In this document: positions 909-46,200 of the stretch, one piece after another | How the letters are laid out: each line of letters begins with the position of its first letter | How positions within the stretch are numbered: the stretch's first letter is position 1 | IMG/VR virus record: IMGVR_UViG_3300028197_001738 | Coordinates: 1-64,000 of that record | DNA length: 64,000 bases | Strand: one strand, 5' to 3' | Source of the DNA: a virus | Translations under genes and position numbers: made by a program | Notes under the pieces: model-generated | Database searches by the model: none | What the model saw: the letters and a program-made list of their open reading frames with translations, nothing else | What the model was told of the DNA's origin: nothing

Positions 909-2840
909 ATGCCTAATGTAATTATTAAAATACGTAGAGATACAGCAGCAAATTGGAATGATGCCAATCCTACCCTAGTTCTGGGTGAAGCCGCCTATGA
1001 AACAGACACCAGAAAACTTAAAGTTGGTGATGGCATTGCTGATTGGGATAATTTAAACTATATTTATACTCATGAAGCTAACGACATAGATACTAAAGTA
1101 GCCTCTTTATTAACATCGGGCAGTGGAGTAGTATTAGATTACGATAGTGGTATTGGAGAACTAGCTATTTCCGCTATACCTTATATTGCTGGAAACTCTA
1201 TAGAAATTTCTAATAATATAGTTTCTTATACAGGCATATCAAGTTACGAAGCTGGCGAAGGTCTACAAATAACTAATACTAATTTAATTAGCTTTACGGG
1301 TCTTCCTCAATTTCAAGACACTTATGCAGGATCTATTAATAGTACTCATAATAATTGGAATCCTGGTGTGACAGCTCAAACTATTAGAGTAACAGGAGCC
1401 GACGGAATTTTAACAGGCATGTCTTCTGATGTATATCCCAATAGTATTTTTCTTAATATTGGGGATCAAAATATTACTATAAAACATGATCATCCTAATT
1501 CAGAAACCCAAAATAGATTTTTGGCCCCAAACAATAGGGATTATGTCGTTCCTCCAAGTGGAGGATCGGTAAGAATTATTAGAGATTATGTTGACAACTC
1601 TTGGAGAGTTTTAGGTTTTAGTAAAGACGGCATAGCAGATGAACAAGAGCAACAAGTCTATTCTTACGGTTCATCTAGTTTGGTTTTTGTTTATGATACC
1701 ACCAAAATTAGTGGTAAATCAATCATTTTCCCTGTCGGTGGTGTTAATCCTAACATAGAAGTTAATTGGGGAGATAGTAGTACTACCAAATATACAAGTA
1801 CAGGATTAAAATTTCATCACTATCCGAGTGACGGAACTTATGTTGTACAAGTAACTGGTAGTATGACAGCATTAGATTATTTAGTGTCTCCAAGTAACAA
1901 CTATGGCAAAGAAGCTTTGGTTAAATGCTTATCTTTCGGAACAGTAGGCTTAACATCTATCGATAGAGCTTTTTATAATTGTTCTAATTTAAATGAGTTG
2001 CCTTCAATATTATATACTGGAATTACAAGCATGGAAAATGCAGTATATGGAGCTACAAATTTAGATGATAGCAATTTAGTAACATGGAACACTAGCAATG
2101 TTACTAATATAGAAGGAATGTTTACAAATTCTGATACTTTTAATCAACAATTGTCAGCATGGAGTTTGTTTAATGTTACTAATTTAGATTCTGTTTTTGA
2201 AAATGCGTCAGCTTTTAATAGCAATGTTTCGTTATGGAATACTTCTAATGTCACCTCTACAAGATCTACTTTTAGGGGAGCAGCCAATTTTAATCAAGTT
2301 GTTGCAAGCTGGGATATGTCTAGGGTGACAGATATGTCATACATGTTTGCTGATGCTCAATCTTTCAACAGAGATTTAAGTTGGACGACAACTGCCTGTG
2401 CCAATATGGCTCATATGTTTAGCGGGTCTTTAGCTTTTGATTCTAGTGTAGATAGTTTTAATACTTCAAATGTAACAGATATGTCAGCTATGTTTGCTGA
2501 CTCTTTATCTTTCAATCAAAATATATCTAATTGGTCTACTTCTAGTGTAACAACAATGTCTCATATGTTTGACGGTGCAAGCTCTTTTAATCAAGACTTA
2601 AGTGGATGGGATATATCAGGATTGAATTCATCAAGTTCTCTTAATAACTTTATGAAAGGTGTTACATTAAGCACAAGCAATTATGATAATTTATTGAATT
2701 ATTGGAATACAAACAAAAACAGTTACCTTACAAATCTATCTCCTAATTTCGGACTTTCCAAACATTCTGCTTCAGCATCAGCAGCAAGGTCTGCATTAAT
2801 TAGTTATGGATGGGCTATCACAGACGGGGGCTTAGCATAA
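909..2840 (+). CDS. tail-fibre/receptor-binding protein with PKD-like domain and BspA-like (DUF285) repeats
   Basis: This 643-residue protein has four visible parts. Residues 1-50 match the short N-terminal domain common on phage fibres and Mtd-type proteins (I-R-R-D-T-A-A-N-W, then G-E-A-A-Y-E-T-D-T and K-V-G-D-G). A middle region ends in a fibre-like segment (RFLAPNNRDYVVPPSGG). A PKD-like stretch at about 275-325 contains NWGDSS and a D-G-T-Y-x-V-x-V strand. The C-terminal half, about 330-600, is a run of roughly 25-residue repeats of the type N-T-S-N-V-T-x-M-x-x-M-F-x-x-A-x-x-F-N-Q, the BspA/Mycoplasma DUF285 surface repeat. Such repeats mediate surface or protein contacts in bacteria. 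A role in host binding is likely. The next gene starts on its stop codon. Confidence 0.8.
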   Translation: MPNVIIKIRRDTAANWNDANPTLVLGEAAYETDTRKLKVGDGIADWDNLNYIYTHEANDIDTKVASLLTSGSGVVLDYDSGIGELAISAIPYIAGNSIEISNNIVSYTGISSYEAGEGLQITNTNLISFTGLPQFQDTYAGSINSTHNNWNPGVTAQTIRVTGADGILTGMSSDVYPNSIFLNIGDQNITIKHDHPNSETQNRFLAPNNRDYVVPPSGGSVRIIRDYVDNSWRVLGFSKDGIADEQEQQVYSYGSSSLVFVYDTTKISGKSIIFPVGGVNPNIEVNWGDSSTTKYTSTGLKFHHYPSDGTYVVQVTGSMTALDYLVSPSNNYGKEALVKCLSFGTVGLTSIDRAFYNCSNLNELPSILYTGITSMENAVYGATNLDDSNLVTWNTSNVTNIEGMFTNSDTFNQQLSAWSLFNVTNLDSVFENASAFNSNVSLWNTSNVTSTRSTFRGAANFNQVVASWDMSRVTDMSYMFADAQSFNRDLSWTTTACANMAHMFSGSLAFDSSVDSFNTSNVTDMSAMFADSLSFNQNISNWSTSSVTTMSHMFDGASSFNQDLSGWDISGLNSSSSLNNFMKGVTLSTSNYDNLLNYWNTNKNSYLTNLSPNFGLSKHSASASAARSALISYGWAITDGGLA

Positions 2841-5849: not shown

Positions 5850-6001
5850 AATTTTTAGATAAAATAGCCTTAAACAGATTTATTAAGATAATTACTGATT
5901 TTATACTTTCTATTATGAAAATGTTTCAACATACGAATAATAGTGTAAAACCAGAAAGAAAAAAACCCATCATTGATTTATTGAGGAGATGGATAAAGTG
6001 A
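5846..6001 (+). CDS. small basic protein of unknown function
   Basis: This 51-residue reading frame starts at an ATG overlapping the stop of the peptidase gene (ATGA) and ends inside the start of the next gene. It begins MKFLDKIALNRF and ends with a basic tail (E-R-K-K-P ... R-R-W-I-K). A central segment, F-I-K-I-I-T-D-F-I-L-S-I-M, is hydrophobic and amphipathic. Overlaps at both ends and gap-filling position support real coding. It may bind membranes. No family is recognised. Confidence 0.45.
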   Translation: MKFLDKIALNRFIKIITDFILSIMKMFQHTNNSVKPERKKPIIDLLRRWIK

Positions 6002-6246
6002 TTAATAAAATATTGTTAAGTACAATTGTGGCCTTGCCTTTAATTTTGGGTCAATCTAATTCAACTCAAACAAAAAGTTATTATAGTACTACTGCTGTGG
6101 TTTCTTTGGTGGGTGGTGTAATCAGTAGTTCTGATCAAGAAAACACAGAAAAGTATAAAAGAGAAGACTGTCCAGTGTGTGAAGGCAAAGGATGGTATAT
6201 GAGTGGCGATGGTATCAAAAAAATAACTTGTCAATATTGTGAATAA
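5989..6246 (+). CDS. small exported protein with DnaJ-type zinc motif
   Basis: This 85-residue protein has an N-terminal hydrophobic stretch (about residues 8-21) that looks like a signal peptide or anchor, with a second weaker hydrophobic patch at 36-46. The C terminus carries C-P-V-C-E-G-K-G-W, then C-Q-Y-C, which resembles half of a DnaJ cysteine-rich zinc-binding module (C-x-x-C-x-G-x-G). A zinc motif on a probably exported peptide is unusual. A GAGGAG ribosome binding site sits immediately before the start. It stands directly upstream of the two large adhesins. Confidence 0.55.
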   Translation: MDKVINKILLSTIVALPLILGQSNSTQTKSYYSTTAVVSLVGGVISSSDQENTEKYKREDCPVCEGKGWYMSGDGIKKITCQYCE

Positions 6247-6248
6247 GC

Positions 6249-7862
6249 ATGGCATTAGAATTAAATAACTGTAATAGTGCAAATTATAATTTTACGGCAG
6301 ACTGGAATAGTCAAGACGGGAATGTAAGCACGGTAGGATCTAACGGGAAAAGCAGTTATTATGGAACGTATGATCAAGCTGGAAATGTTTGGCAATTATT
6401 AGATTCCTTAAATGGTTCATACCAAGCCCTTAGAGGAGGAGCATATAATAGTATAGATACTAATATATCTAAAAATTATAGAAGTTCACAATATTTAGAT
6501 GCAAAAAGATCAAACCTTGGCTTTAGAATAGCAAAGAAGATAAATAATACAGATTCTTATAGTTCTTTCGTAAGTGTGACAGGAAGTAGTGTTCAAGACT
6601 CTACAACATACGGGGGAGTAGCTTACGATTTTAAACTGCAAACCTATCCAGTGACCAATACAGAATATGTCGAATTCTTAAATACAGTAGCTGTTGATGG
6701 GGCCCCAGGTAAAGAACTGTATCATATCAATATGGGTGTTTTCCCTCACGGAGGCATAGAAAGAAATGGAGAGTTTCCGACTTATACATATTCTATAAAA
6801 ACAGATATGGGGAATAAACCCATTAATTTTATTAATTGGTACTCTGCTGTTAGGTTTATTAACTGGATAAGCAACGGAAAACAAACAGATGTAGATACCA
6901 CAGAATCAGGAGTTTACACATTAAACGGGAATGTAAAAAGTTCTCCTCTTAATAAGAATACATACTGGCTACCAACAGAAAACGAATGGTACAAAGCTGC
7001 TTATTATGATCCCAGTTCTTCCACGTATTCGACTTATGCGACACAATCTAATTCATTACCAGATTCCGTTACTGTAGATTCCACAGGATACGCAGTAGAT
7101 ACAGCAAGCAATCCTGGGATTTGTATTAGTCCGACACCTACTCAGACCCATACTGCGAGTCGAACCCCAACAAATACTAGCACAGCATCTCCAACCCCAA
7201 CAAATACTAGCACATCCACGCAGACTCCCACAGCGACACCTACTAATACGGCAACACAAACTTCTACTGCTTCTACAACACCAACGCCAACTAACACCAA
7301 CACCTCTACTGTGACTCACACTCCTACTCATTCTTCTACAGTAACCCCCACAAGAACTCCTACTAATACTCCAACCGCTACGGCAACTCCAACTATCACC
7401 CCAACAGCTAGTACTACTCCTACAATAACTCCAAGTGTCACTAAATCTCAATGTCCTCAAGAAAAAATAGGTCAATTAATTTTTCAAGATAATATATTTT
7501 TAAATGATGCGATGGATATAGTGTATAAAGGTTTTGTGCTGTCTGGTAAAGTTATAGGACAAAATGTTTCTGTTTCCGAGGCTTTAGATGTTACACCTAC
7601 TACAACTCCTACACAAACACCAACCAATACATCAACTCCTACACAAACTCCGTCCAATACTCCAACAGGCACAACAACACCTACATCAACTCCTACTCCT
7701 ACAAACTCTAGAACACCACAGCAGACAGCGACAAACACCCACACGCCAACAGCCTCAGTCACATCAACACCAACTAATACCGAAACACCCACACCTACAC
7801 CTAGCGCAACAGAAAATTGGACAATTATATATGATGGTGGTGACGCATATGGAAATGTATAG
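6249..7862 (+). CDS. adhesin-like protein: permuted FGE/C-lectin domain plus Pro-Thr stalks
   Basis: This is a 537-residue protein. Residues 1-97 match the C-terminal half of formylglycine-generating-enzyme-like (FGE-sulfatase, C-lectin fold) domains: [14 protein letters not shown], then L-R-G-G-A-Y-N, then S-N-L-G-F-R-I-A. Residues about 108-278 match the N-terminal half: [13 protein letters not shown], then [12 protein letters not shown], then [16 protein letters not shown]. The halves are therefore in reversed order. Two Pro-Thr stalks (about 295-397 and 447-520) flank a 50-residue spacer that begins SQCPQEK. The domain is probably a binding module. The paired active-site cysteines of true FGE are not apparent. 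It starts 2 bases after the preceding gene. A host- or glycan-binding role is inferred. Confidence 0.75.
7131..7437 (+). repeat. Pro-Thr stalk-coding low-complexity repeat
   Basis: A degenerate run of ACN and CCN codons encodes T-P-T-N-T/S-T-P units. An exact internal repeat (CCAACAAATACTAGCACA) occurs twice near 7168 and 7198. A second run follows at 7591-7811 in the same gene. Confidence 0.8.
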
Positions 7863-7892
7863 CTCTATAAACCCAAAAATTTAAGAAATATT

Positions 7893-10800
7893 ATGTCAAA
7901 CACTTCCCTTCAACACAATTTACAACTTGATCCAACTCAGCATGTTATATTTAGCGAAGCTTTTAGGAATGGCGATAAACAACCCTTAAATGGAAGAACA
8001 TACTATAACAATCCCCTGTCTGTAACATTGTATGAAGGCGAAATTGCTAAAATAACAGCGACGGGATTGATAAATTTTAATAATCATTGTGACCCCTATA
8101 CTCCCGATGGTAGTGCTACATGTTCTAGTCAGACCGATATGGTCGGAGGTTCTCCTCCCGGAGCATTATATGGAAGATTAGGTTTAGGAAATATTTTCCG
8201 AATAGGGTCATCTTCTACAATTACTGTATCCAAAACACAAGTTTTACATTTATTTTTAATAGACAGACCAGCAGAAGATAATTCAGGTAGCTGGGATATT
8301 ACAGTAGATATTTCTAGTCTTCGAGCTGCTCGTAGAGATGAACAAAACTGTTTTAATAAATTAGATTCAGATTTGCCCCAAGGTTTAAATTGTTGTTCAT
8401 TCATACAAACAGCCCTTCCTAATAGTGCTAATTATGGTAAGAATGCCAATTGGAAAGGTAGTGTTAATTCAAGCCTGCCTTTCGTTTCAGGTAATATAAC
8501 GACTGTGGGCAGTAATGGAGGAGCTAGTTATTACGGAACGCGAGATCAAACAGGGAATGTTGCAGAGATTAACGACGCATATATAGTTGATCCTGTCGGA
8601 GGTGACTCTAGAGGTCTTAGAGGAGGATCTTTTGCAGAACAAATACAGTTTATTTCAAAATCTCATAGAGGGTCCGTGCCTGTTCAAGATGCAGGAGAAT
8701 TTAGTAGCGACATAGGATTTAGATTATCTTCTCCGTATGACGAAGGGGTGTATAGATTCCATAATCAATTTTTGCCTGTTCTTAATTCTGGAAATACCGC
8801 AGACTCTACGAGCTATGGGAATGTTGATTATAATTATTATATCACCAAATTCCCGATTAGTAATACTGAATATGTGCAATTCCTTAATACAGTGGATCCA
8901 AGCGGAGATAATCAGCAGGATTTATTTAAGTCATCTACTCAAAATTTTTATAGAGGCATATCTAACACAGGAACAGTAAGTGGTTCGATATACGGATGTG
9001 ATGTAAATATGGATTTCAAGCCAGTGAATTTGGTAGACTGGTTTAATGCTGCTAGATTTGCTAACTGGTTACATAATAAAGTTTCTATCGGCCCTGATGT
9101 TACTGGGGACGCAGCTACAGAAGATGGAGCTTATACTTTAAATGGCCTTAACAGCGGTGTTGTTTATGCTAATGCTGACGCAAAATACAGAATACCAACT
9201 GAAGATGAATGGTATAAAGCGGCTTATTATGATGGTTCTGTAGATAGTTATTGGAAATATGCGACACAAACCAATGACGACCCAGAACAAGTTTGTGCTA
9301 GTAACGCAGGAGATGGAGGACAGTGCGATCCTCTACCAACTCCAACAGCAACGCCGACGAGTACAGTAACCCCAACAAATACAGCTACCGCTGGTCCTAC
9401 TCCTACACAAACAGCTACAGCTACAGTTACTCCAACAAACACCGCTTCTGCTACAGCGACACCTACTAACACCCCTACTAACACCGTTACTCCAACTAAC
9501 ACTCCTACTTCATCTGTAACTCCTACTCAAACAGCTTCAGCAACAGCTACGACCACAGCTGTTCCTACGGCCACAGCTTCTGTGACACCGACACAAACAC
9601 CAACAAATACTCCTACAAATTCAGTTACTCCTACACAAACAGCTTCAGCAACAGCTACATCTACCACTACTGCCACTCCAACACAAACGCCAACAAATAC
9701 TCCTACTAATTCAGTAACTCCTACCACAACCCCAACAAATACGGCAACTACTACTGCCACGGCCACCACAACACACACTCCAACTAATACTCAAACACCA
9801 ACGAACACACCAACAAATAGTGTGACTCCTACTCAAACACCAACTAATACTGTTACTCCTTCTTCGACAAACACTAGTACTCCCACTCCCACAGCGACAA
9901 CAACGGGTACGGCTACTCCTTCTCCCACAGTCACTAGTACTGTCACTCCAAGTAACACTCAAACGAATACAGCAACTTTAACAGCTACTCCCACTAATTC
10001 CGCAACCCCTACTCAAACGCCAACGAACACGCCAACGCAAACTAATACGGCTAGCCCCAACAGCACACCAACGCTTACGACGACGAACACTCCGACCAAC
10101 ACCTTAACTCAGATGTTCTTCACTCCTACCCCAACGAATACCCCATCGAACACAGCTACTGTTACGCCAACAGCTACTACTACAGCAACAGCTACGCCTA
10201 CAAGTACCACAGAAGCAACAGCAACCCCTACAACAACACAGACAGCAACTGTCACGCCAACCTCATCAGTAACACCTACTATAACCCCTACAACAACTCA
10301 GACTCCAACCAATAGTCCAACCTCTTCTGTAACCCCAACGATAACTCCAACTAGTACTATAACTCCGAGTATTACTCCTACGATCACTCCTTCTGTAAGT
10401 GTCCTTGGGGACACGAACAACATGCAATTAGTTGTTGAAGTCGTTGACGCAGCAGTAACTAGTCAATCAACTCTAACAGTGCTTCTAGACCCAACTGATA
10501 CCTGTGTTATTAATTGGGGAGATGGTGAAGTGGAATATGTCACTAACGAACAACCATCAGTTTACACTCATACCTATTCGGCTAATGGAGTTTATAGAGC
10601 GTCAATTGTAAACCCAATTCAAAGAATAAGTTTTTATGGTTCGGTTGTATTGACCCATGTTTTGAGCTGGGGTAATTCTCCCGAATTAGGAAAATATCCA
10701 GGCTATGGAATGTTTGAACAATGTATAAATTTAGTAGGAGTCCCATCAATATTTCCCGCTAATCTTGTATTCGCATCATATATGTTTGCTGGTTGTAGAA

Positions 10801-11612
10801 AATTGGGCTCGATACCTATAGATCTTAGTGGATGGGACACAACAAGCATAGGTACTGCTGACTCAATGTTCAAAGGATGTATTTCTCTTGGTATGTATAG
10901 TCCTGTTGGTATTCAATATTGGAATTTACCATATCTCGCTGATGCATCCAGTATGTTTCAAGGATGTTTCTCTTTAAATGAATCTATATCCTGGAACCTT
11001 CCTAGTTTGTCAAAAGTAGACAACATGTTCAATAGCTGCAACCTGCTAAATAGCGATATCTCTATGCAGAACATGACTAATCTAAGTAATATTTATGCTA
11101 TGTTTATGGATTGTACTAGTCTTAATAGCAGCATTAATGTAAACACAGCGAACGCAACGTCAATGAGATACATGTTCTACAATTGTAATAGTTTAAATCA
11201 AAATTTAGCAGCAACTATGTCATTCGGCAAACTTGGACAAGGGGATGTTGCTACAAGATCTTGCTCGCTAGAAGGTTTCGCTGGAGGCGCAACAAAACTT
11301 ACTGGTGCCAACTACGATGGACTCTTGCAAGAGTGGAATGATAGTACTTATCCAGTAACTTTCACGAATGTAGATATGGGCCGATCCACTCCTAGCGTTG
11401 GCGCTGGTCAAAACGATAAAATCAGTCTTATTGATAAAGGCTGGACTATATTTGACGGAGAAAACCTCAATTTAAATCCTTCAGCACCTTCAGAGTGTGA
11501 ATTGGATACGCCATTTTATAGTGTGCCACCTCCACCTCCACAACTGCCACCGCCACCTCCACAACTGCCACCGCCTCCACCGCCGCCACCGCCGCCTCCA
11601 CCGCCATATTAG
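7893..11612 (+). CDS. multi-domain adhesin: LecA-like, permuted FGE, Pro-Thr stalk, PKD-like, BspA repeats, poly-Pro
   Basis: This is a 1239-residue protein. Residues about 10-150 form a beta-rich domain resembling LecA-type sugar-binding sandwiches (A-L-Y-G-R-L-G, then [11 protein letters not shown]), a weak match. Residues about 165-290 match the C-terminal half of an FGE/C-lectin domain ([11 protein letters not shown], then R-G-L-R-G-G-S, then I-G-F-R-L). Residues 310-464 match its N-terminal half ([13 protein letters not shown], then [13 protein letters not shown]), the reverse of the usual order. A Pro-Thr stalk fills about 480-837. A PKD-like domain ([10 protein letters not shown], then G-V-Y-R-A-S-I-V) lies at about 845-910. 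BspA/DUF285-like repeats (Y-M-F-A-G-C, S-M-F-K-G-C, A-M-F-M-D-C) lie at about 915-1136. The protein ends in about 28 mostly proline residues. The domain set suits a long, flexible host-binding fibre. Confidence 0.75.
9332..10404 (+). repeat. 1.07-kb Pro-Thr stalk-coding repeat region
   Basis: About 358 codons, almost all Thr, Pro, Asn, Ser, Ala or Val, form T-P-T-N-T-P-T and T-A-T-A-T units. Many near-identical 15-40 base stretches recur (for example ACTCCTACACAAACAGC near 9520 and 9630). One non-conforming island (Q-M-F-F) sits near 10110. The frame is kept throughout. Confidence 0.85.
11523..11609 (+). repeat. poly-proline coding repeat
   Basis: CCN-rich tandem units (CCACCTCCACCTCCACAACTG repeated, then CCG/CCT/CCA runs) encode P-P-P-P-P-Q-L twice and then an unbroken proline run at the adhesin's C terminus. 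The left edge of the window (1-47) carries a similar poly-proline run in another gene. Confidence 0.8.
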
Positions 11613-25639: not shown

Positions 25640-26676
25640 TTACATATTTTAGAAGCTCCTCTTACAACACCCACTCTATGTGCGAACAGCAGTACTTTAT
25701 AGAGTACGTCCTTGGATGGAGAGGCCCTTCGGGACAAAAGGCTGATAAGGGTACTATTGTACATAAAATTTTAGAAATATTGGCTGTAATCAAACAAGCT
25801 CAACAAAATAATCAAGAAGAAATAAATGATGATCTTTTGGGCCCGATAAGTACCGATAGCTATAATCTCAATACAATTATACATGACGTATATGAATATT
25901 ATACTACCAGAACACCTCATCATAAGTGGACCGCTAAAGATTATAAAGATTGCCATGCTTGGACCTACAAGGCAATAGATTTTAATGACGGAATGTTTGA
26001 TCCAAGAAATAGAAATATATTGTGCCCAGAACAACATTTCGATTTTGAAATTAAAAAACCATGGTCTAAATATAGTTATAAATTGCCAGATGGTAAAAAC
26101 TTAGAAGGTAATTTAGCTATGAAAGGAACCATAGATTTAATTACGCTGGTAAATGAAGATACTATTGAAATTATAGATTGGAAAACAGGAAGAAGGTTAG
26201 ATTGGGCTACCGGTAAAGAAAAAACACAAGAAAAACTTGAGACAGATCCTCAATTAAGAATATATCATTATGCCATTAAACATTTGTATCCCCATATAAA
26301 ACATATCATATTTTCAATTTATTATATCAATGATGGGGGTCCTTTTACTGTTTGTTTCGATGACAAAGATTTGATTTCTACAGAAGATATGTTGCGAGCT
26401 AAATTCAACACTATCAAAGCTGTTAAGCGTCCTAAATTAAAGAAAAGTTGGATGTGTACAAAGTTATGCCATTTTGGTAAAACAACTTTTGAAAATTCTA
26501 TACTTGACCCGACGGTTGAATATAGAGATAATCAAGTATGTAGTAAAGGTTCGTACATGACAAAGTGCGAACAAATTAAACACGATATAGAACTATACGG
26601 TATAGACACTTCTATGGCTCTATATAAACATCCTAATCACTCATTTGGTTCATATCAAGCCCCAGGTTCTGCATGA
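25633..26676 (+). CDS. RecB/Cas4-like PD-(D/E)XK exonuclease, probable non-AUG start
   Basis: The first ATG in this frame is at 25678, but the conserved entry motif of RecB-like nucleases is encoded upstream of it: S-S-S-Y-N-T-H-S-M-C-E-Q-Q-Y. The frame is open from 25621 and contains no ATG, GTG or TTG before 25678. AAAGGA at 25619-25624 is well placed for an ATC at 25630 or ATT at 25633, whereas 25678 has no ribosome binding site. I therefore place the start at 25633, giving 347 residues. The nuclease core follows: H in G-T-I-V-H-K-I-L, then GTIDLI (D) and IEIIDWKTGR (D-W-K), and a late cysteine pair. It would process DNA ends for recombination. Choosing ATG at 25678 would cost 15 residues. 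Confidence 0.75.
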   Translation: MIITYFRSSSYNTHSMCEQQYFIEYVLGWRGPSGQKADKGTIVHKILEILAVIKQAQQNNQEEINDDLLGPISTDSYNLNTIIHDVYEYYTTRTPHHKWTAKDYKDCHAWTYKAIDFNDGMFDPRNRNILCPEQHFDFEIKKPWSKYSYKLPDGKNLEGNLAMKGTIDLITLVNEDTIEIIDWKTGRRLDWATGKEKTQEKLETDPQLRIYHYAIKHLYPHIKHIIFSIYYINDGGPFTVCFDDKDLISTEDMLRAKFNTIKAVKRPKLKKSWMCTKLCHFGKTTFENSILDPTVEYRDNQVCSKGSYMTKCEQIKHDIELYGIDTSMALYKHPNHSFGSYQAPGSA

Positions 26677-28541
26677 AAAACTATAGCGCATTACATGTCC
26701 ATTCCCATTACAGTTTGATGGATGGTCTTTCTAAACCTTTGCAGATAGCTGACAGATGTAAAGAAGTAGGTATTACAAGCTGTGCCATTACTGATCACGG
26801 CTCCATATCTGGTGCTGTTCAATTCTTTTCGGCTATGAAAAACCAAGGAATTAAACCGATACTGGGATGTGAAATATATGTTTGTAAGGAAAGTCCTGAA
26901 ATAAAAAACAAAACCAATAGTAAACTAAGTCATTTTTTATTATTATCAAAAAATTATGAAGGTTGGAGATCTTTAATTAATATTATTTCAGAATCAAATT
27001 TAGAATGTAATTTTTATCGAAAGCCAAGGCTAGATTTTAACACTCTGGCAAATCTATTAGATGGTAATATTATCGGATATTGTGGACACATGGGGTCCGT
27101 GTTGGCAAACGATCTGATGTCTTCTTCTGAAAATGACATAGGTAAGATAGGCTCAGAATTTGTTGCACATATGAAAGACATTTTTGGTTCTGATAACTTT
27201 TTTCTAGAATCACAGTTAATGGATAAAGAAAATACACCAGAACAAATAGAGATTACAGAACACATACGTAGAATTGCAGAAAACACAAACACTAAAGTAA
27301 TATGTACTCCTGATGCTCATTATTGTAGAAAAGAAGATGCGGTAGATCAGCGCATACTGTTGTGCAATAATCTAAAAACAACATTAGTGGAGATCAACAG
27401 AAAACTACTAAACGACGAAGAAGTTCCTATGTCTTGTTTTTTTAAATCAGATAATTTTCATATATTGTCTCCAGAAGAAATGCAAGAATTACATACAGAA
27501 GAAGAAATCGAAAACACTTTATACGTAGATAGCTTATGTGAAGACTATACCATATTAGATAAACCTATCTTACCCGATTTTAAATGTCCTAAAGGTATGG
27601 ATTCAGCTGAATACTTAAGACATTTGTGTAGACAGGGCTGGAAAAATAAAATTGAACACGATGTAGATAAAAATATGCATGCAAAATATGTTGATAGAAT
27701 TAAATATGAATTAGATGTTTTGCAAGGTGCGGATTTATCCAGCTATTTTTTAATTGTTCAAGATATAGTTCAATATGTTAAAGACAGTTCTTGGCTACCC
27801 GGCCCAGGCAGAGGGTCTGCTGCAGGATGTTTGGTATCTTATCTAATAGGAATAACTTCTATTGATCCAATTAAATATGATCTTATTTTCGAAAGATTTT
27901 ATAATGCAGGTAGAAATACCGGCGGGCATATTTCTATGCCTGATATTGATATAGACGTTCCAATTAACAAGAGAGAAGAGATAATCTCATATATTAAAAA
28001 GCAATATGGTGAAGATAAAGTTTCTCAAATGATAACTTTTAATACCATGAAAGGTAGAGGAGCTTTAAAAGAGGTTCTTAGAGTTTATGGAAATATAACC
28101 TTTGATGAAATGAATAAGATTACTAAATTTATACCAGACGAAGCAAAAATAGCAGATGAGTTGCAAGAAATGAGAGAAGACACAGGAGAGGCTTCTATTA
28201 TAAGATGGGCATTAGAAAATAATGTTGACAAACTAAAGGAATGGTGCTATATTAATGATGAGGGGCAGCTATCAGGGCCTCTAGCTAAAAGATTTGAACA
28301 GGCTATAAGGTTAGAAGGAACTAAATCAAATCAATCAAAACATGCTGCTGGTATCGTAATAAGTAAAGATCCTTTAAGAAGTGTTTGTCCAATGGTATAC
28401 GATTCTAAAAATAAACAATCAATTGCCGGAATGGAAATGCAAGACCTTGAGAGTTTAGGTGTAATTAAATTTGACGTCCTTGGCATAGCCATGTTAGACA
28501 AAATTATGACTATATCTAATATACTAAAAACTGGAGAATAA
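26673..28541 (+). CDS. dnaE: DNA polymerase III alpha subunit, N-terminal half (PHP and palm)
   Basis: This 622-residue protein begins with a PHP domain (H8-V-H10-S-H12, then A-I-T-D-H-G-S). It continues through the C-family polymerase core with GPGRGSAAGCLVSYLIG and the catalytic P-D424-I-D426-I-D motif. It ends just after V-I-K-F-D601-V-L-G, which corresponds to the third catalytic aspartate. All three metal-binding aspartates are thus in this half. The fingers, beta-binding and OB regions are in a separate gene at 29410-31041. The sequence stops right after the palm with no intein-like cysteine end. It overlaps the nuclease upstream by 4 bases. Confidence 0.9.
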   Translation: MKNYSALHVHSHYSLMDGLSKPLQIADRCKEVGITSCAITDHGSISGAVQFFSAMKNQGIKPILGCEIYVCKESPEIKNKTNSKLSHFLLLSKNYEGWRSLINIISESNLECNFYRKPRLDFNTLANLLDGNIIGYCGHMGSVLANDLMSSSENDIGKIGSEFVAHMKDIFGSDNFFLESQLMDKENTPEQIEITEHIRRIAENTNTKVICTPDAHYCRKEDAVDQRILLCNNLKTTLVEINRKLLNDEEVPMSCFFKSDNFHILSPEEMQELHTEEEIENTLYVDSLCEDYTILDKPILPDFKCPKGMDSAEYLRHLCRQGWKNKIEHDVDKNMHAKYVDRIKYELDVLQGADLSSYFLIVQDIVQYVKDSSWLPGPGRGSAAGCLVSYLIGITSIDPIKYDLIFERFYNAGRNTGGHISMPDIDIDVPINKREEIISYIKKQYGEDKVSQMITFNTMKGRGALKEVLRVYGNITFDEMNKITKFIPDEAKIADELQEMREDTGEASIIRWALENNVDKLKEWCYINDEGQLSGPLAKRFEQAIRLEGTKSNQSKHAAGIVISKDPLRSVCPMVYDSKNKQSIAGMEMQDLESLGVIKFDVLGIAMLDKIMTISNILKTGE

Positions 28542-28542
28542 A

Positions 28543-28722
28543 ATGGTTAAAAAATTTAGAGAATTAAATGTCGGAGATCAGTTTACTTATGCTGGTACTC
28601 AGTATATAAAAATGAATCCTGTAAAAGTAAGCTGTTGTAGATCAGTTAATATGCATGTTGTGGGAAACACATCACAAAGAACTTTTTTAAACCCAGATGT
28701 AGAGGTTACAGTTAATGCCTAA
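28543..28722 (+). CDS. small protein between the polymerase halves
   Basis: This 59-residue protein follows the polymerase N-half by one base and overlaps the exonuclease start by 8 bases. It begins M-V-K-K-F-R-E-L-N-V-G-D-Q-F and has Y-I-K-M and V-K-V-S-C-C-R-S-V-N-M, then F-L-N-P-D-V-E-V at the end. This looks like a small beta-barrel phage protein family of unknown role. I see no catalytic residues. Its position suggests it travels with the replicase genes. Confidence 0.6.
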   Translation: MVKKFRELNVGDQFTYAGTQYIKMNPVKVSCCRSVNMHVVGNTSQRTFLNPDVEVTVNA

Positions 28723-29407
28723 TTTTCAGAAGATATGCGTTTTTGACATGGAAACGGACGGGGCTAAACCTGATAAGTGCAGCCCCGTTCAAATCGCAGC
28801 CATTATGATTGATCCTAATAGGCTGGAAATTATTAAGGATTCGGAATTCAATATTACATTAAAGCCATTGGCTTTAGAAGATGATAAGGACTATGACTAT
28901 AGTGATTCCGATGTGTTAGACTTTCATGCTAAAGTCCAAGGATGTTCAAAAGAAAATATTTTGGATAAGTGGAAGGACTATCCTAAGCAAGAACTGGGTT
29001 GGAAAAATTTTGTTTCTTATCTAGATATGTATCATACTAGGTCTGAAAGAAAATCATGTTTCACAGCACCAATTGCTGCAGGTTATAATATTAATGGTTT
29101 TGATTTAAAAATAGTTGAGAGACTAAGTTCTAAATACAAAAATGTTAATAAAGAGGGAAGATCAAATTTATTTTTCCCTAGAGACGTTATAGATGTAATG
29201 AATTTAATTTTTTATTGGTTTGAAGGAAATAATGAACTAAAGAACTATAAAATGGATAATCTTAGAGAATATTTCGGTATGGATAAAGATGGAGCACATG
29301 ATGCCCTCAAGGATGTACAAGATACAGCAGGGTTACTTATTCGTTTTTTGAAATTGCATAGAAATGTTGCTCAAAAAGTCAGTTTTAGAGATTCTTTTGT
29401 TCAGTAA
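28715..29407 (+). CDS. dnaQ: DnaQ-like 3'-5' proofreading exonuclease
   Basis: This 230-residue DEDD-family exonuclease shows motif I F-D11-M-E13-T-D-G, motif II G-Y-N-I-N-G-F-D near 122-129, and motif III H-D-A-L-K-D-V-Q-D-T near 195-204. The last has the H...D spacing of DEDDh enzymes. It would proofread for the split DnaE polymerase. It lies between the two polymerase genes, 2 bases before the second half. The extra loop between motif I and motif II makes it a little larger than a minimal epsilon domain. Confidence 0.85.
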   Translation: MPNFQKICVFDMETDGAKPDKCSPVQIAAIMIDPNRLEIIKDSEFNITLKPLALEDDKDYDYSDSDVLDFHAKVQGCSKENILDKWKDYPKQELGWKNFVSYLDMYHTRSERKSCFTAPIAAGYNINGFDLKIVERLSSKYKNVNKEGRSNLFFPRDVIDVMNLIFYWFEGNNELKNYKMDNLREYFGMDKDGAHDALKDVQDTAGLLIRFLKLHRNVAQKVSFRDSFVQ

Positions 29408-29409
29408 TT

Positions 29410-31041
29410 ATGTCAGAATATTTTGCTTTTTCTTGTGGCTGTAAGTTCAAAGTCTTAAATAAAGATTGCGATCCTCCACTTATTGATTTTAATCCTGAAT
29501 TAGAGTCTATAAATCTTAATTGTGAAAAAACTTGGGATCTGATATCTTCTGGTAATACCAAAGGGTGTTTCCAGTTAGAATCTCGCTTAGGCCAGACAAT
29601 GGCCAAGAAGCTAAAACCCTCAAATATTAATGAGCTTTCTGGATTGATAAGTATTCTTAGGCCGGGATGCCTAGAAGCTTATCGTGATGGAAAAAGTGTT
29701 TCCAGTCATTATATAGACAAAAAGAATGGTTTGGAATCAATTGATTATTTTCATCCCGCTTTGGAGCCTATTTTAAAACATACATATTCTGAAATGATTT
29801 ATCAAGAACAAGCTATGTCTATATCTAAAGAATTGGCTGGTTTTGATCTACAACAAGCTGATGAATTAAGAAAAGCTATTGGTAAGAAACAAGCAGATAA
29901 AATGGCAAAGCTTAAAAAGAGCTTTATCAAAGGTTGTGCAAAAAGAAAGTCTGTGTCTAAAGATGAGTCAGAACAGATATTTGGATGGATTGAAAAATCC
30001 CAGAGGTATTTATTTAATGCCAGTCATTCTATTAGTTATGCCATGAATGCCTATCTGTCTGCTTATGCTAAAGCGCATTTCCCTAAAATATTCTTTGCTT
30101 CATATTTACGTTTTGCCAAAGACAAAATGGATTCTCAACAAGAGATTAAAGAGTTGGTAAGAAATGCTAATGAAATGGATATTAAAATTAGCATACCTGA
30201 TTTAAGAAATCTCAATGAATTTTTTATCCTAAAAAACAAAATCATATACTTCGGCCTAACAGACATAAAAGGCGTCGGTCAGTCCGTATATAAAAAAATA
30301 ATAAAGATGGCAGAAGAAAAAGATATTATTGAGTATAGTTGGCTGGAAACTTTATTTGAAGTACTATTAAATATTAATTCAACTGCCAGTAAAGCACTAA
30401 TTTCTTGTGGTGCTCTGGATTATTATAAAAAAAATAGAACAGATATGTTATTCAATTATGATCTTATTTCTGAATTAACAAAAAAAGAATCAGACATATG
30501 CAGAAACATTATATCTGAGTCTAAAAATAAAGATATCAAAATAATAAAAGTGCTAGAGCAACTACTAGAAGCCCCTAGAATACAGAAAAATAGAAAAAAA
30601 ATAATAAATAATATAATTAGCAGTATCAAGAAACCTCCTTACTCCCTGATAGATAAGATAGAGTGGCTGTCCGACTCCGAAAACAATATGCTCGGTGCAT
30701 CAATTACGTGTTTTAAAATTGATACATATGATACTGCTATGGCTAACTGTAATTGTAAAAGCTTTAAAACTTCAGTTGTAAGTAGTAATATTGTCATTGC
30801 TGGAGAAATTAATAATATAAATATTATTAAAACCAAAAAAGGTAAAAATCCTGGACAAGAAATGGCTTTTGTTAGTATTGAAGATCAGTACGGAATACTA
30901 GACTCTGTAATATTTTTCCCTGAACAACTGTCTAAATATAGAACACATCTTTTCAATGGCAATATCTTAATATTCAGCGGTAACAAAAGCAAAGATAAGG
31001 ACGGATTGATAGTAGAAAAATGTTTTATGCCAGCGACTTGA
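29410..31041 (+). CDS. dnaE: DNA polymerase III alpha subunit, C-terminal half (fingers, helix-hairpin-helix, OB-fold)
   Basis: This is a 543-residue protein. After about 45 lead residues with C-G-C and D-C-D, it picks up where the N-half stops: T-K-G-C-F-Q-L-E-S-R, then L-R-P-G-C-L and Y-Q-E-Q-A-M, then GFDLQQADELRKAIGKK, then FNASHSISYAMNAY. A helix-hairpin-helix-like L-T-D-I-K-G-V-G near 291 and an OB-fold segment near 450-540 complete it. The two genes together give about 1165 residues, close to full-length DnaE. The lead region may be the docking surface for the N-half. No intein signature is seen. The gene ends in the -35 box of the SSB promoter. Confidence 0.9.
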   Translation: MSEYFAFSCGCKFKVLNKDCDPPLIDFNPELESINLNCEKTWDLISSGNTKGCFQLESRLGQTMAKKLKPSNINELSGLISILRPGCLEAYRDGKSVSSHYIDKKNGLESIDYFHPALEPILKHTYSEMIYQEQAMSISKELAGFDLQQADELRKAIGKKQADKMAKLKKSFIKGCAKRKSVSKDESEQIFGWIEKSQRYLFNASHSISYAMNAYLSAYAKAHFPKIFFASYLRFAKDKMDSQQEIKELVRNANEMDIKISIPDLRNLNEFFILKNKIIYFGLTDIKGVGQSVYKKIIKMAEEKDIIEYSWLETLFEVLLNINSTASKALISCGALDYYKKNRTDMLFNYDLISELTKKESDICRNIISESKNKDIKIIKVLEQLLEAPRIQKNRKKIINNIISSIKKPPYSLIDKIEWLSDSENNMLGASITCFKIDTYDTAMANCNCKSFKTSVVSSNIVIAGEINNINIIKTKKGKNPGQEMAFVSIEDQYGILDSVIFFPEQLSKYRTHLFNGNILIFSGNKSKDKDGLIVEKCFMPAT

Positions 31042-40269: not shown

Positions 40270-43200
40270 TTAATCTCCAGTATATTCATGAGGAATCATG
40301 AAAGCATCGAATTCTGACACTATCTGTCCTTGCTCCCTATTTTCTGCTCCATCAACACTTCCCATATATGCTCTATACGATAACTCATTAAGAAGTTGCA
40401 TTAATCTAGTATTGCTAGTTTTTTGCAGATTAGAATCTTCATCAAACTCATAACATTGCCACATATAGGGAAAGTTATACAAATATCCTTGAGCTATTGT
40501 TGTTTGTATAGGTTGAAGAGGTGCAACTCTTGAGTCTTGTCTGTATTCTGTAACATCTCCATATCTATAAAGAGTAGCAAGCAAGTCTACTCCTCTTAAG
40601 CTCCTGGGTATTTTTCTAAACTTTACTCTTAAATCTTTAGTATTATCTAGATTAAAAATGTTTGTCACCCTTGATGGAGCACCCACTCTCAAACCATCGT
40701 CTTCTGGATCTAAAGCTGATAGTAGCCCCAAGCCTCCTGGAGAACCATCAGTGCAAGCAGGATCATCCCCAATTCCTAATACGGAATTGACATCTGCTGA
40801 ATAATCATTTCCTATTAATCCTTCTTCAATTGCTTTTTTGGGAGGCAAAATGTTAGAAGCTGGTAAAGCTACTTCATAATATTCTCTAACCAAAACGATA
40901 TAATTCTGTGAAGCATTTGAGCCGATATCTTGTGTTGTTGGCATATAAAAAGTTCTAAAAACATCATATGTTGCCCAACCAGCAATAGATGGATATTTCT
41001 TTTCTAATTCTTCTTTTTGTTTTTGTACTGTTTCTTCTGGTATTGTATACGTAGGAGATAGTGTTTGACGAAAATCAACTGAACCGATTGGATTATCACC
41101 GAACTCTAATTGTTCTACTCCTTCGTCCCCCGCTGAGAAACCTCCACCATAAGCAAACTGAGGACACACATTATTATCAATTTGACCTTCTTGACCTTGA
41201 AGATTGGGATCTAAAAATGCACAACTAGTTACTGTTTTAATTAGAACTTTAGGTCGGAGTTCTTCTGCAATAGAGCATGATTGCTTGGGATCAATATTTA
41301 TCCAGTATAGATTATTATTTATTGAGTAATCTACATCATAAGTATTTATATTATTATCAGTAACAGATAATGTCGCTACAACATGAGAAGTAACATCCTC
41401 CTCAGCTATTTGTAACAATAGTCTTTTCAAAGAATTTCCTTCTGCGCATAATTTTTCTATATTATCAGACAACTTTATTAAAGCATTTACTTCATCTGAA
41501 TCTTTGGAATTATCATAATACAACAAGGCTGTCGATATCGAAGGTTCTAATTTAAAAAACTTGCGTATTTCTTCCATAGATAATTTTTCTGGAATAATAG
41601 ACTCGGTGACCTCTCCGTCTAAAGTTTCTAATCTTTTGTTGATATCACTCTTGGTATTTCCATATAGATTAACCTTATTAGATATAGTCATATCTCCTTG
41701 AAACATTAATTGATAATCAGACCAAAGATCTTCTTCATATATATCATTAAAATCTTTATTTTTTATATAAATAATTTCATGCTTTTTATTCTGGTATTTA
41801 TAATCTTTATATTTATTTTCAAAAGTCTCTTTTATCTCTGCTAAAGTATCAGGAGTTACAATATCGCTATCTATTACTCTTTTTTTCTTTTCTTCTTCTC
41901 TGTCATCAAAAACTTCTTGAAAATTTAATAATTCATTAATACTACAACTGAAACCCCTTGTTTTCGATTTTATAAAATCAGAAAAAGAGCTAGTATTCTT
42001 ATCATATAATAATATTTTATTGTATTTAAATTTATTATTATCTCTATTATTGTATATTTCATACAACTTTTTAATTTTATTGACTTTGTCAAACTCATTT
42101 ACAAAAAACTTATTATGTAATAAAGATATGTCTCCATAGCTACCACGACTAAATAAATTATTTTTTGGTGGATATATAGGGTGTTTGGCAGAAGTCCATT
42201 GATCATCGTAGCTTGAATCATTAATCTCTCCGTCGAATTTAAACTGATTAGTAGGATCTGATCCTATATTTTCTTCATCTTCCAAAGTATCTGCAATACT
42301 CGTAACAGGATCGATAATTGCTATTACGCTATTATCAAGACTCATGACTTTATTTCTGCCTACTAGAGTGTCTCCCTGTGCTGGGCAGAATACTCCTTCT
42401 TTTTCATCAGAAAGGGCAAATATAGAAACATGCTTATTGTCTAATATAATTTTTGCTTTACCTAATATTGTAGCTGTTGTTTCTTCAAAATCTCCTGTGC
42501 TATCTATAATGTTCATATCTTCATCAACATCATATAGATCATAAGGTATAGAATTTTCTATTTTTATAACAGTTATATTACATCTATTACCGATAGCACT
42601 ATATGTATCATCATCGAATATGTGATATGCACTACCTATATTACTATTTAATAAATCTATTGTTTCACTACCTGGTTCATACAGTTCGGACTTACTGGAA
42701 ACAATCGAATATTCAAAATTAGATAATAGTATTTCTAAATCCGTAGACCCATTAGAAATAGGAGTAATGTCTCTAAGCATAGTTTTAATTCTGGGAGTAT
42801 TAGATAGTCTAAAGATAGATGCTTCAAGATTATACCAAAAAGCACCATCCTTACTAACATTAAGCAAAATTTTATCTCCAGACCCAAACTGGTATCCATC
42901 ATGATTAAGAGCATATATTTCTCCTTGCTTTCTATCAGCACCTCTCCATTTTCGTGTTTGAGAAAAGTAATCAAATATTTGTCCATAAGCAGAATTACTA
43001 GCAGACCCCGCTATACTAGCCCCAGCAGCAGCAGCACCAGCACCAGCAAAACCCAAACCTGCCCCAGCAGCACCTGCAGCAAGTATAGAGACCGTTGCGG
43101 AGCTTGGAAATTCGGGAGGTCCAGCAATTGCAATATCTGTTTTAAAAGGATTGTCTGTGTTATTCGGACAGGGTGTGAAGTCTTGAATATATTGAAAAGG

Positions 43201-46200
43201 AGCATTAACATTAGCCAAAGGCATTAGTTCTAGCATTCCTGTAAGGTCAGCAATAAAACTATTACCATAATACCCACTATCTTTATTTATTGGTTGTGTT
43301 TGATAGTCTATGAATCCCAGGATATCACTACCACTTCCATAGTGTTCGCTATCATTACTTGTTGGAACTGGTTTGGTTTCGGAATCTACATGTAAAATAG
43401 TTTCCCATGTGCATAAAGTGCTGAATTTTTGTGTAGACGTAACTTTACTGCTGGGCTGTGTAAAATTATTGTATAAAACATTACTTTTAACATTATCGTA
43501 AGGTCCCATTAAGTCTGTTTCATTAACTACTGCTATTTTTAAACTAAATTTTGTTTGTGAATCAAAAGCATCTCCCTGCTGTTTAGGCATTTGGTCTTTA
43601 CAGGGGCCAGTTTCAGGACCCGGATTGACAAAAAGAATCTTATTATGGAATTTACTGAATGTATTGCATGGTATAGTTAGTCCATTGCGAGGTATTATTT
43701 TGTCCATGAGGTGATGATCTTCAGACGAAAATCCCATTGCTGCTGTTGTTGGTTTTAATGAGCTAAAATTATCAACAGCTGTATATCTGGTATCGAACCT
43801 ACCATCAGCAGAATTATTAGTTTCAGCATTATCAGAAAATTTTAAAGATAAATTAAATTCGTTATTTTTTACGTATTCCTGATTCAAAAGCATTAACTTA
43901 AAAGGTTTTTGAGGAGCAGTGGAATTTATAGTTGTTAGTTCAGTTAAATAACTTTTAAGTAATTCTACATCTACATGTCCTTCAATAGTTTCTTTAATTC
44001 CTGTGTTTGAAAAATAGTCTTCTAATTGTTTTTTAATATTACTATCAGTATTAGACCATTTTATATCCGTTGATTGATACTGAGTAGAGCTACTAAAAAC
44101 CTGATCTAAAAATGGCTCGTCAACATTTATTAAGTCAGGATATTTAAGTTCTCTCTTACCCCGGCCCTTTTGAGCATCTATTTCTTTTTCTGACAATTCT
44201 GCTTCTAGCCATATTACTAAATCTTGAGTATTTACATAGTTAAAAAATCTTAAATTTACTTCTAAGTCTTTTATTTGGAAAGAATTAACTCTAGGGTCTC
44301 TTAATTCTAAATCAGAATCCATATCATCTTCGGGAAGTCCTCCCTTTCTTAGTAGTTCTTCCAATTCTGGAGATAAATCTTTTAGATTGTTAGCTGGTCC
44401 AGTAACTCCAAATTCATATAATGTTTCATAATCGAGAGAACTATTTTCTTTTGTTGTTATAAAAAATTCATCATTCACATCATAATTTAGAGAAAGAGTT
44501 CTTTCCATTTGTTTAGGATAGCCACCAGCCAACATTCTATAACCATGAGTAGACTCATATTGAATTTCAGATCCGCTTGTCATAACCTTTTTATTCGTAT
44601 TATAGGCATCTGCATATTCTTTATGCAACTGATTGATAGTGTTTTGAAATCGCATTCTCTTATTAAAACTGTTCCCTGCTGCCCCACCTCCTTGAGCAGG
44701 GGGACACTCGCACAGAGGATCCCACCGAACACCCTTAGCTATTCCTAAACTTACAGTACTAGTAAATATCTTAGGACTATTGTATGTGACGCCTCCTAAA
44801 TTTATAATACTACTACTGTCAATATTTAATTTAGGTCCATTAAAAGTAAATGAATCTCTAGCTCCGGGGTTGAATTTTAAAACAGAAGATTTGTTGATAT
44901 CTATTCCGTCAACCCATCCACTATTAGGAATAAACGAACCCTTTTTAAAATTTACGTAAAAATCTCGACTGTCCACACTATCTATTATAGCATCGCTAGC
45001 TTTAGGATAACATAACTTATGCCTAGGAATATTTGCACTTTCTTCTTCATCTTCTTGAGCCTGAGGGCCAGATTGAGCATCTGCGATGTTATTATTTATT
45101 TCTTTGGATTTGGCTAGTTCACTAAGATCGTCCAAAGGATATCCAGTAATCGGAGGATATGTTATATCGAGTCCTAAAGCAACATCAGGTAATTCTAATT
45201 CGTTGTGAAAATTTGTTTTTTGCTCACTATCTAGACTATTATAACCCCCATAAGATCTTAACGGGCTACCACGATCAGTAGAGAATGTAGTCAATCCAAA
45301 AGTTTTAGTTTGACGTTCGTCCGGCATTGCTGCTAAAGCAAAACCTAAATAATTATTGGTATAGCCAAGCGTATTTCCTGTAACACCTTGACCAGCAGCT
45401 CTTCTTTCATATGCAGATATTGTGTTTGAAAATAGAGATAAACAATCCGAACATTCTGTACTTCCATTCCTGACTTTTTCTACAATAATTCTATCTACAT
45501 AGACTCTAATGTCGCTGTTGTTCATATTGTATTTAACATTATATAATGAACCGCTAGTTTCTCCTGTATTAATTAATACTTTACCACCATCTGTTTCGTC
45601 AATGGCATTAAATATAAATTTACTTCCTGATAATTGCATAACTGTAGATGAGAGAAAAGCACTTTCGACAACCTTAAAATTTGTAGAGACAGGCCAAACA
45701 GCACCTTCTGCTTTAAATGCTACCTTAGTCATTGATCCAGCTACAACTTTTATCCCCCTAGGATTTAGAGCAATCGGATTTCTTTGAGCTCTAAAAAATT
45801 TATTATACTTATTGATGAGAACATTAGTATTAACTATTTCTCTTGTTCTATTCATATAGTTATCATAGCTATAAGTGGCTGTCTCGTTTTTTTCTGTTTC
45901 TACGATAAAAGTTTTATATTTAACATGAACACCAAAAGGACCAGATATAGTACACTTAACCGTGATGGCCCCATAATCAGAAGGCAATATATCAACTATA
46001 TCGGCTGTAGAAGTATTATATAAAGTTCTCTTTCCTGTTCCAGAAATATTTGTGTCTGTAAATTTAATCTCTGGTCCACTAACATGCTCCCATAAAACAC
46101 CAAAGTCACTTAGCGCTTCATTGCTAGCGAGGAAGAAGGTCCAATCTTCCCTCCCAACCATAACTGCTTGAGAAAGAATAGGGAAAAATGCAGATAAGCT

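Follow-up and report, generated by a model that had tools for sequence, protein, structure and literature searches.

Two adjacent genes in the window, i.e., the whole 64,000-nucleotide stretch analyzed here (positions 1 to 64,000 of the 95,663-base virus record IMGVR_UViG_3300028197_001738), encode proteins, P1 and P2, in which the halves of a domain related to formylglycine-generating enzyme (FGE) and C-type lectins (CLec) stand in swapped order. First and second half refer below to the ordinary order of this domain. The relevant features are:

909..2840, + strand: context protein of tail-fibre type, with the major tropism determinant N-terminal domain (Mtd_N, PF18454, E 6e-15), P2-like DUF285 repeats (PF03382, E 9.5e-91) and PHROG tail fibre matches
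6249..7862, + strand: P1, intact ORF of 537 aa; a single FGE/CLec domain in permuted order, then Thr/Pro-rich linkers; PF03781 in two swapped pieces
6270..6272, + strand: P1 Cys8 codon, outer-register cysteine at the new N-terminus (alignment column 12), co-occurring with the C-terminal cysteine
6270..6536, + strand: second half of the P1 FGE domain (GNVW...RGG...GFR), first in the chain; custom half-model E 4e-33, PF03781 155-255
6537..6563, + strand: P1 link of ~9 residues leading from the old C-terminus to the old N-terminus (gap between half-models; between model strands E95-97 and E107-110)
6564..7094, + strand: first half of the P1 FGE domain (NTEYVEFLN...YATQS), second in the chain; custom half-model E 8e-62, PF03781 36-138
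7122..7124, + strand: P1 Cys292 codon, partner cysteine right after the new C-terminus, ahead of the Thr/Pro-rich linker (alignment column 546)
7893..11612, + strand: P2, intact ORF of 1239 aa; N-terminal region without family match, FGE domain in permuted order, long Thr/Pro-rich stalk and DUF285 repeats (Pfam)
8421..8732, + strand: second half of the P2 FGE domain, first in the chain (half-model match; PF03781 162-253)
8733..8765, + strand: P2 link of ~11 residues between the old termini (half-model gap)
8766..9317, + strand: first half of the P2 FGE domain, second in the chain (half-model match; PF03781 35-141)

A sequence-only reading of this DNA had claimed that the second half precedes the first in both proteins and had proposed a separate profile search with each half. 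Searched alone, P1 residues 16-96 matched PF03781 positions 155-255 (E 6e-6) and residues 127-267 matched positions 36-138 (E 1.4e-12). In P2, the half placed first matched positions 162-253 at E 3e-4, just short of the curated cut-off, and the half placed second matched positions 35-141 at E 2.5e-12. Thus, all four halves map to PF03781, and in both proteins positions ~155-255 precede positions ~35-140, joined by ~9-12 residues. The comparison of P1 with the PHROG family phrog_18508 revealed the identical swap; this family is labeled 'kinase' yet matches the FGE-like halves of P1, and the label looks wrong. Custom half-models, which include the window proteins, again gave the swapped order at E values of approximately 1e-25 to 1e-62, a signal well outside what chance would give and one that recurs in ~90 viral units; the sequence-only observation is thereby confirmed. 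P1 begins directly with NNCNSANYN...GNVW...RGG...GFR, and no first half lies ahead of it: the preceding ORF (5989-6246) encodes an unrelated protein of 85 aa. This agrees with the earlier statement that P1 opens with the C-terminal half and that no intact domain stands upstream. A start-site or frame error masking an upstream first half of P1 was rejected for the same reason, the 5' flank being an unrelated short ORF. The arrangement was also said to be common to two paralogues, and its reach proved wider: a third swapped-order copy lies beyond the window in the same record (68926-69831, − strand).

To place P1 and P2 among their relatives, we collected homologous units from viral contigs in IMG/VR as well as from genomes of bacteria and archaea, and located the halves with models derived from the window proteins plus relatives. 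After removal of near-duplicates, 87 units show the P1/P2 order (85 from other viral contigs and the two in the window), all of them viral. Three further viral units (L196, L200, and L279) have a second permuted order, giving ~90 permuted units in all. Viral units in ordinary order number about a dozen, and the bacterial units, taken from the best 80 of at least 286 loci, are in ordinary order in 79 of 79 cases with no permuted one among them. In a separate profile search of 294 Planctomycetota genomes, with eight candidates scored per genome, no match spanned the permuted order at E ≤ 1e-70; viral records, mostly outside the profile, gave spanning matches mostly of 1e-87 to 1e-127, the weakest at ~1e-64 to 1e-74. 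At this depth of bacterial sampling, occasional permuted units may still exist in bacteria. Among the 50,697 named phage records of INPHARED, two different members of the family returned no matches.

Several viral proteins have more elaborate architectures. L042 carries, in residues 820-1430 of its ORF, a permuted FGE domain with an ordinary-order FGE domain nested in a loop, as does L257, and in L015 and L186 an ordinary-order domain directly follows the permuted one in the same chain. In L274 and L308, and also in L006, L227, and L292, a long stretch separates the second from the first half and is apparently inserted in the new link; in L274 and L308 this stretch looks Ig-like by eye.

Since several units occur in some viral proteins, and those of L192 and L307 are spaced closely enough to make the register ambiguous, the swapped order could in principle arise from a tandem array of ordinary domains read out of register, with its outer halves lost or mis-annotated. 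However, the link between the swapped halves, measured as the gap between half-models, is nearly constant (median 8 residues, range 5-17), whereas separate units mostly lie tens to hundreds of residues apart. Stretches with more than 50% Thr/Pro/Ser precede 38 and follow 41 of the 87 units, and protein ends also serve as bounds. Moreover, in 55 closed ORFs a single second half is followed by a single first half, with no other part of the family present, which refutes the array for those proteins and leaves it hardly credible for the family.

The same ORFs bear on the second possibility raised from the sequence, namely that the domain is completed by its neighbor, the first half of P1 pairing with the second half of P2. 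In its favor, the two genes adjoin, and in both of them the domain starts with the second half. Against it, P1 and P2 each hold both halves, and the 55 closed viral ORFs contain one complete unit each, so that neighbors are unnecessary. The shortest of these single-unit ORFs measure 315-336 aa, and L041, with 315 aa, consists of nearly nothing besides the domain. An AlphaFold2 model of P1 residues 1-296, computed with 65 permuted relatives, showed one compact domain (pLDDT 91.8, pTM 0.91) rather than two incomplete domains without packing between them. The idea of completion by a neighbor did not survive these results and has a very remote chance of being correct; as modeled, one chain would be enough for the whole fold.

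Foldseek comparison of the P1 model with the PDB gave FGE-family structures as leading matches: 1y4j (a paralogue of human FGE), PorKN (9mzu), TvpA (2y3c), and FGE (6muj, 2q17). The alignments cover ~73-113 columns, about a third of the chain, with TM values of 0.16-0.23, as expected from an order-dependent alignment, which recovers just a single part of a domain in permuted order. At the sequence level, no solved relative was significant, the best being TvpA (2y3c, E 0.63), and the viral structure library contained no meaningful match to the domain. Solved FGE-type CLec folds have their N- and C-termini in neighboring antiparallel strands, β1 and β5 (PMC6328139), and therefore a short link can join the old termini.

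Sequence order and coevolution are blind to whether contacts form within or between chains, and the alignment is equally compatible with an intermolecular swap, in which each head of an oligomeric fibre would be built from two chains, one copy supplying the second half and another the first. Trimers are frequent among fibre proteins, which speaks for such an arrangement. Yet AlphaFold2 is confident for the monomer, and the cysteine pair described below fits closure within the chain, although it would fit other arrangements too. The link of 5-17 residues joins direct antiparallel neighbors and is easily closed within one chain (PMC6328139). We regard the swap between chains as unlikely. Taken together, the closed single-unit ORFs, the compact model and the ordinary order of the matching library families suggest, with a probability of roughly 0.88, that the domains of P1 and P2 represent a natural circular permutation of the FGE/CLec fold, as the sequence-only reading had proposed.

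The ring-aligned units were used to build a tree, in which a branch with support 95 has 89 of the 90 permuted rows on the same side. The number of order changes on the tree is two without L274 and L308, which were dropped from a second tree because their order is uncertain, and three with them. Both were scored as ordinary by the script, yet are placed inside the permuted group and show a leading second half followed by the Ig-like stretch; they are more likely permuted units with an insertion. The permuted viral unit L181 falls away from the main permuted group, pairing there with L098, a planctomycete unit in ordinary order, and possibly reflects a second permutation event or recombination.

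These data suggest that the permutation was mainly one event in a viral lineage (89 of 90 units). The old C-terminus, past G-F-R in strand β5, is joined by a link of ~9 residues to the old N-terminus in strand β1, and the new ends come from a break in the loop that runs from the '...YATQS...GDG' segment to the 'NSANFN...GNVxEW' segment, with the permuted domain presumably continuing to fold as a single unit. Most likely, an ordinary domain was first duplicated in tandem, with a short link between the copies, after which the first half of the leading copy and the second half of the trailing copy were lost. Ordinary domains in tandem, with a similar junction of 12-14 residues, are found in bacteria (L061, L099, L115, and L132). 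Such tandems are the intermediates that this route needs and make it possible, although they come from bacteria rather than from the viral lineage.

A few members appear to have been re-cut later at a second site. In L196, L200, and L279 the order is the last ~50 positions of the first half, then the second half, then the first ~130 positions of the first half. Consequently, these units contain the ordinary junction as well as the permuted link, and their ends lie just before the IPTENEW helix. L200, the only second-site permutant modeled, yielded a compact AlphaFold2 structure (pLDDT 89.7, pTM 0.90). Its series of strands and helices is a cyclic rotation of that of the P1 model, as read from the DSSP lists side by side without superposition.

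Many permuted units also have a pair of cysteines flanking the cut, the first within NFNxC close to the new N-terminus, the second within PTC close to the new C-terminus. Across the 87 units, 37 have both cysteines, 48 have neither and one unit each is discordant in either direction (p 2.8e-22, uncorrected for relatedness). In phylogenetically independent pairs, 5.5 of 6 changed in the same direction and none in the opposite one, the p value of 0.03 being the limit of what six pairs give for columns that were picked after the pattern had been seen. Two control cysteine positions showed no association by the independent-pairs test. In ordinary-order relatives the cysteine is absent at both matching places in 78 of 84 units, and the three second-site permutants, in which this loop is uncut, have no cysteine at the matching places in their sequences. 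In P1 and the units closest to it, the pair stands in an outer register (Cys8 with Cys292 in P1); here 8 of 13 units have the cysteines at the exact columns, with one independent pair lending weak support. Because the flanking cysteines co-occur almost perfectly and are nearly absent in ordinary-order relatives, they probably form a disulfide that, in many members, would re-close the opened loop outside the cell. Cysteines at alignment columns 256 (helix 1, TNC) and 544 (C-terminal tail) of the permuted units, of which 17 have both, 55 have neither and 15 are discordant, possibly form a further disulfide.

What the permutation means for these viruses can be read in two ways. It may be real but neutral, left behind by duplication and trimming and then fixed in a single viral lineage. 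Duplication is the general source of natural permutations, many of which are silent, and the one main origin fits this view. The second cut site inside the permuted clade suggests that topology matters, and the possible second origin represented by L181 beside L098 and the cysteine pair specific to the opened loop point the same way, all three short of proof. Neutrality is possible but less likely than not. Alternatively, and we advance this tentatively at somewhat less than even odds, the FGE/CLec domain in this phage lineage might be a closed ring that evolution has re-cut, so that topology itself becomes a source of receptor-range variation. Such a ring could have been opened at one site in ~90 units, often stapled by a disulfide, and at another before the IPTENEW helix in L196, L200, and L279, and it could also accommodate the Ig-like insertions in the new link of L274 and L308 and the ordinary domain nested in L042. 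If the ring view is true, re-cutting would re-aim the binding face relative to the stalk in phage fibres.

The genomic context points to a location of the permuted-domain proteins on virion fibres. In addition to the tail-fibre-type protein upstream of P1, the third copy adjoins a tape-measure-like gene, and in L012 a single chain unites RCC1 repeats with a permuted domain, Mtd_N and a phage tail repeat. Of 21 records, 14 show a match to the terminase family (phrog_2), though several of these matches are weak and partial. Elsewhere in the window, the phage DNA polymerase (26673-31041) is split into two ORFs matching phrog_405 positions 42-610 and 622-1074, with an RNase_T-type exonuclease ORF (28715-29407) between them, and two very long ORFs of 2524 and 2169 aa occupy 40270-47844 and 47862-54371 on the − strand.

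Two other roles were considered for the domain and rejected. FGE-type catalysis was dismissed since the copper-binding cysteine pair of FGE is missing: neither P1 nor P2 has any cysteine between RGG and GFR, and not a single one of the 90 permuted units carries two. A diversity-generating retroelement (DGR) was likewise set aside, as no reverse transcriptase (RVT_1) was detected in the present record or in 20 other permuted-domain records, some of which are possibly incomplete. Catalysis and retroelement-driven variation are therefore both unlikely. Judging from their context, it is more likely than not that the permuted domains act as receptor-binding or display heads. Placed between the Thr/Pro-rich stalks of fibre-like virion proteins, such heads would most likely be non-catalytic and would bind through the face formed by their variable loops, which lie between R-G-G and G-F-R.

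Circular permutation and the FGE/CLec fold are each known, and the permuted viral family is undescribed in the libraries and papers searched. Pfam, PHROGs, and NCBIfam contain, as far as they match, the ordinary order only and no permuted FGE/CLec family, and the literature search, in which subscription papers were mostly not covered, turned up no account of a permuted FGE/CLec domain. The sequence-only reading had named a database family with this order as normal as grounds for giving up the permutation; no such family appeared among the matches in the three libraries, but the order is indeed the normal one within the undescribed family of viral contigs. Natural circular permutations that found a large, diversified family are uncommon, and the FGE/C-type lectin fold is a scaffold of massive sequence variation in phages and bacteria. 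Because profiles of the ordinary order see two weak fragments, many phage adhesins have probably been missed or misread. The family amounts to a natural experiment in which a single fold is cut at two sites, co-occurring cysteines flank the cut and relatives in ordinary order can serve as a reference, and it suggests display scaffolds with variable loops away from the termini.

Compared with known systems, PorK/GldK, PorN, and EgtB/OvsA share the FGE fold and give weak profile or fold matches to the permuted domains, but have the ordinary order and unrelated functions, and their scores are far under the curated cut-offs. Ordinary-order FGE proteins from Planctomycetota, Verrucomicrobiota, and other groups are the closest ordinary-order sequence relatives among the best 80 of at least 286 loci, where their first half is 43-56% identical to the query lead sequence; they differ in the uniformly ordinary order of their 79 units, nearly all of which also lack the cysteines in the corresponding loop. 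In DGR variable proteins with an FGE-type CLec fold (TvpA, TaqVP, and Mtd), the variable region lies at the very C-terminus (PMC6328139), whereas that of the permuted units is internal and no reverse transcriptase was detected in their 21 records. The two groups share the fold subtype, TvpA is among the top PDB matches, and the Mtd N-terminal domain is found in the neighbor of P1 and P2 and, in L012, in the same chain as the permuted domain. From the FGE-sulfatase/SUMF1-like domain (PF03781), the permuted units are set apart by their swapped halves, and P1 and P2 by the lack of active-site cysteines between R-G-G and G-F-R; both halves are nevertheless homologous to it, its signature segments are present and the leading structural matches belong to the FGE family.
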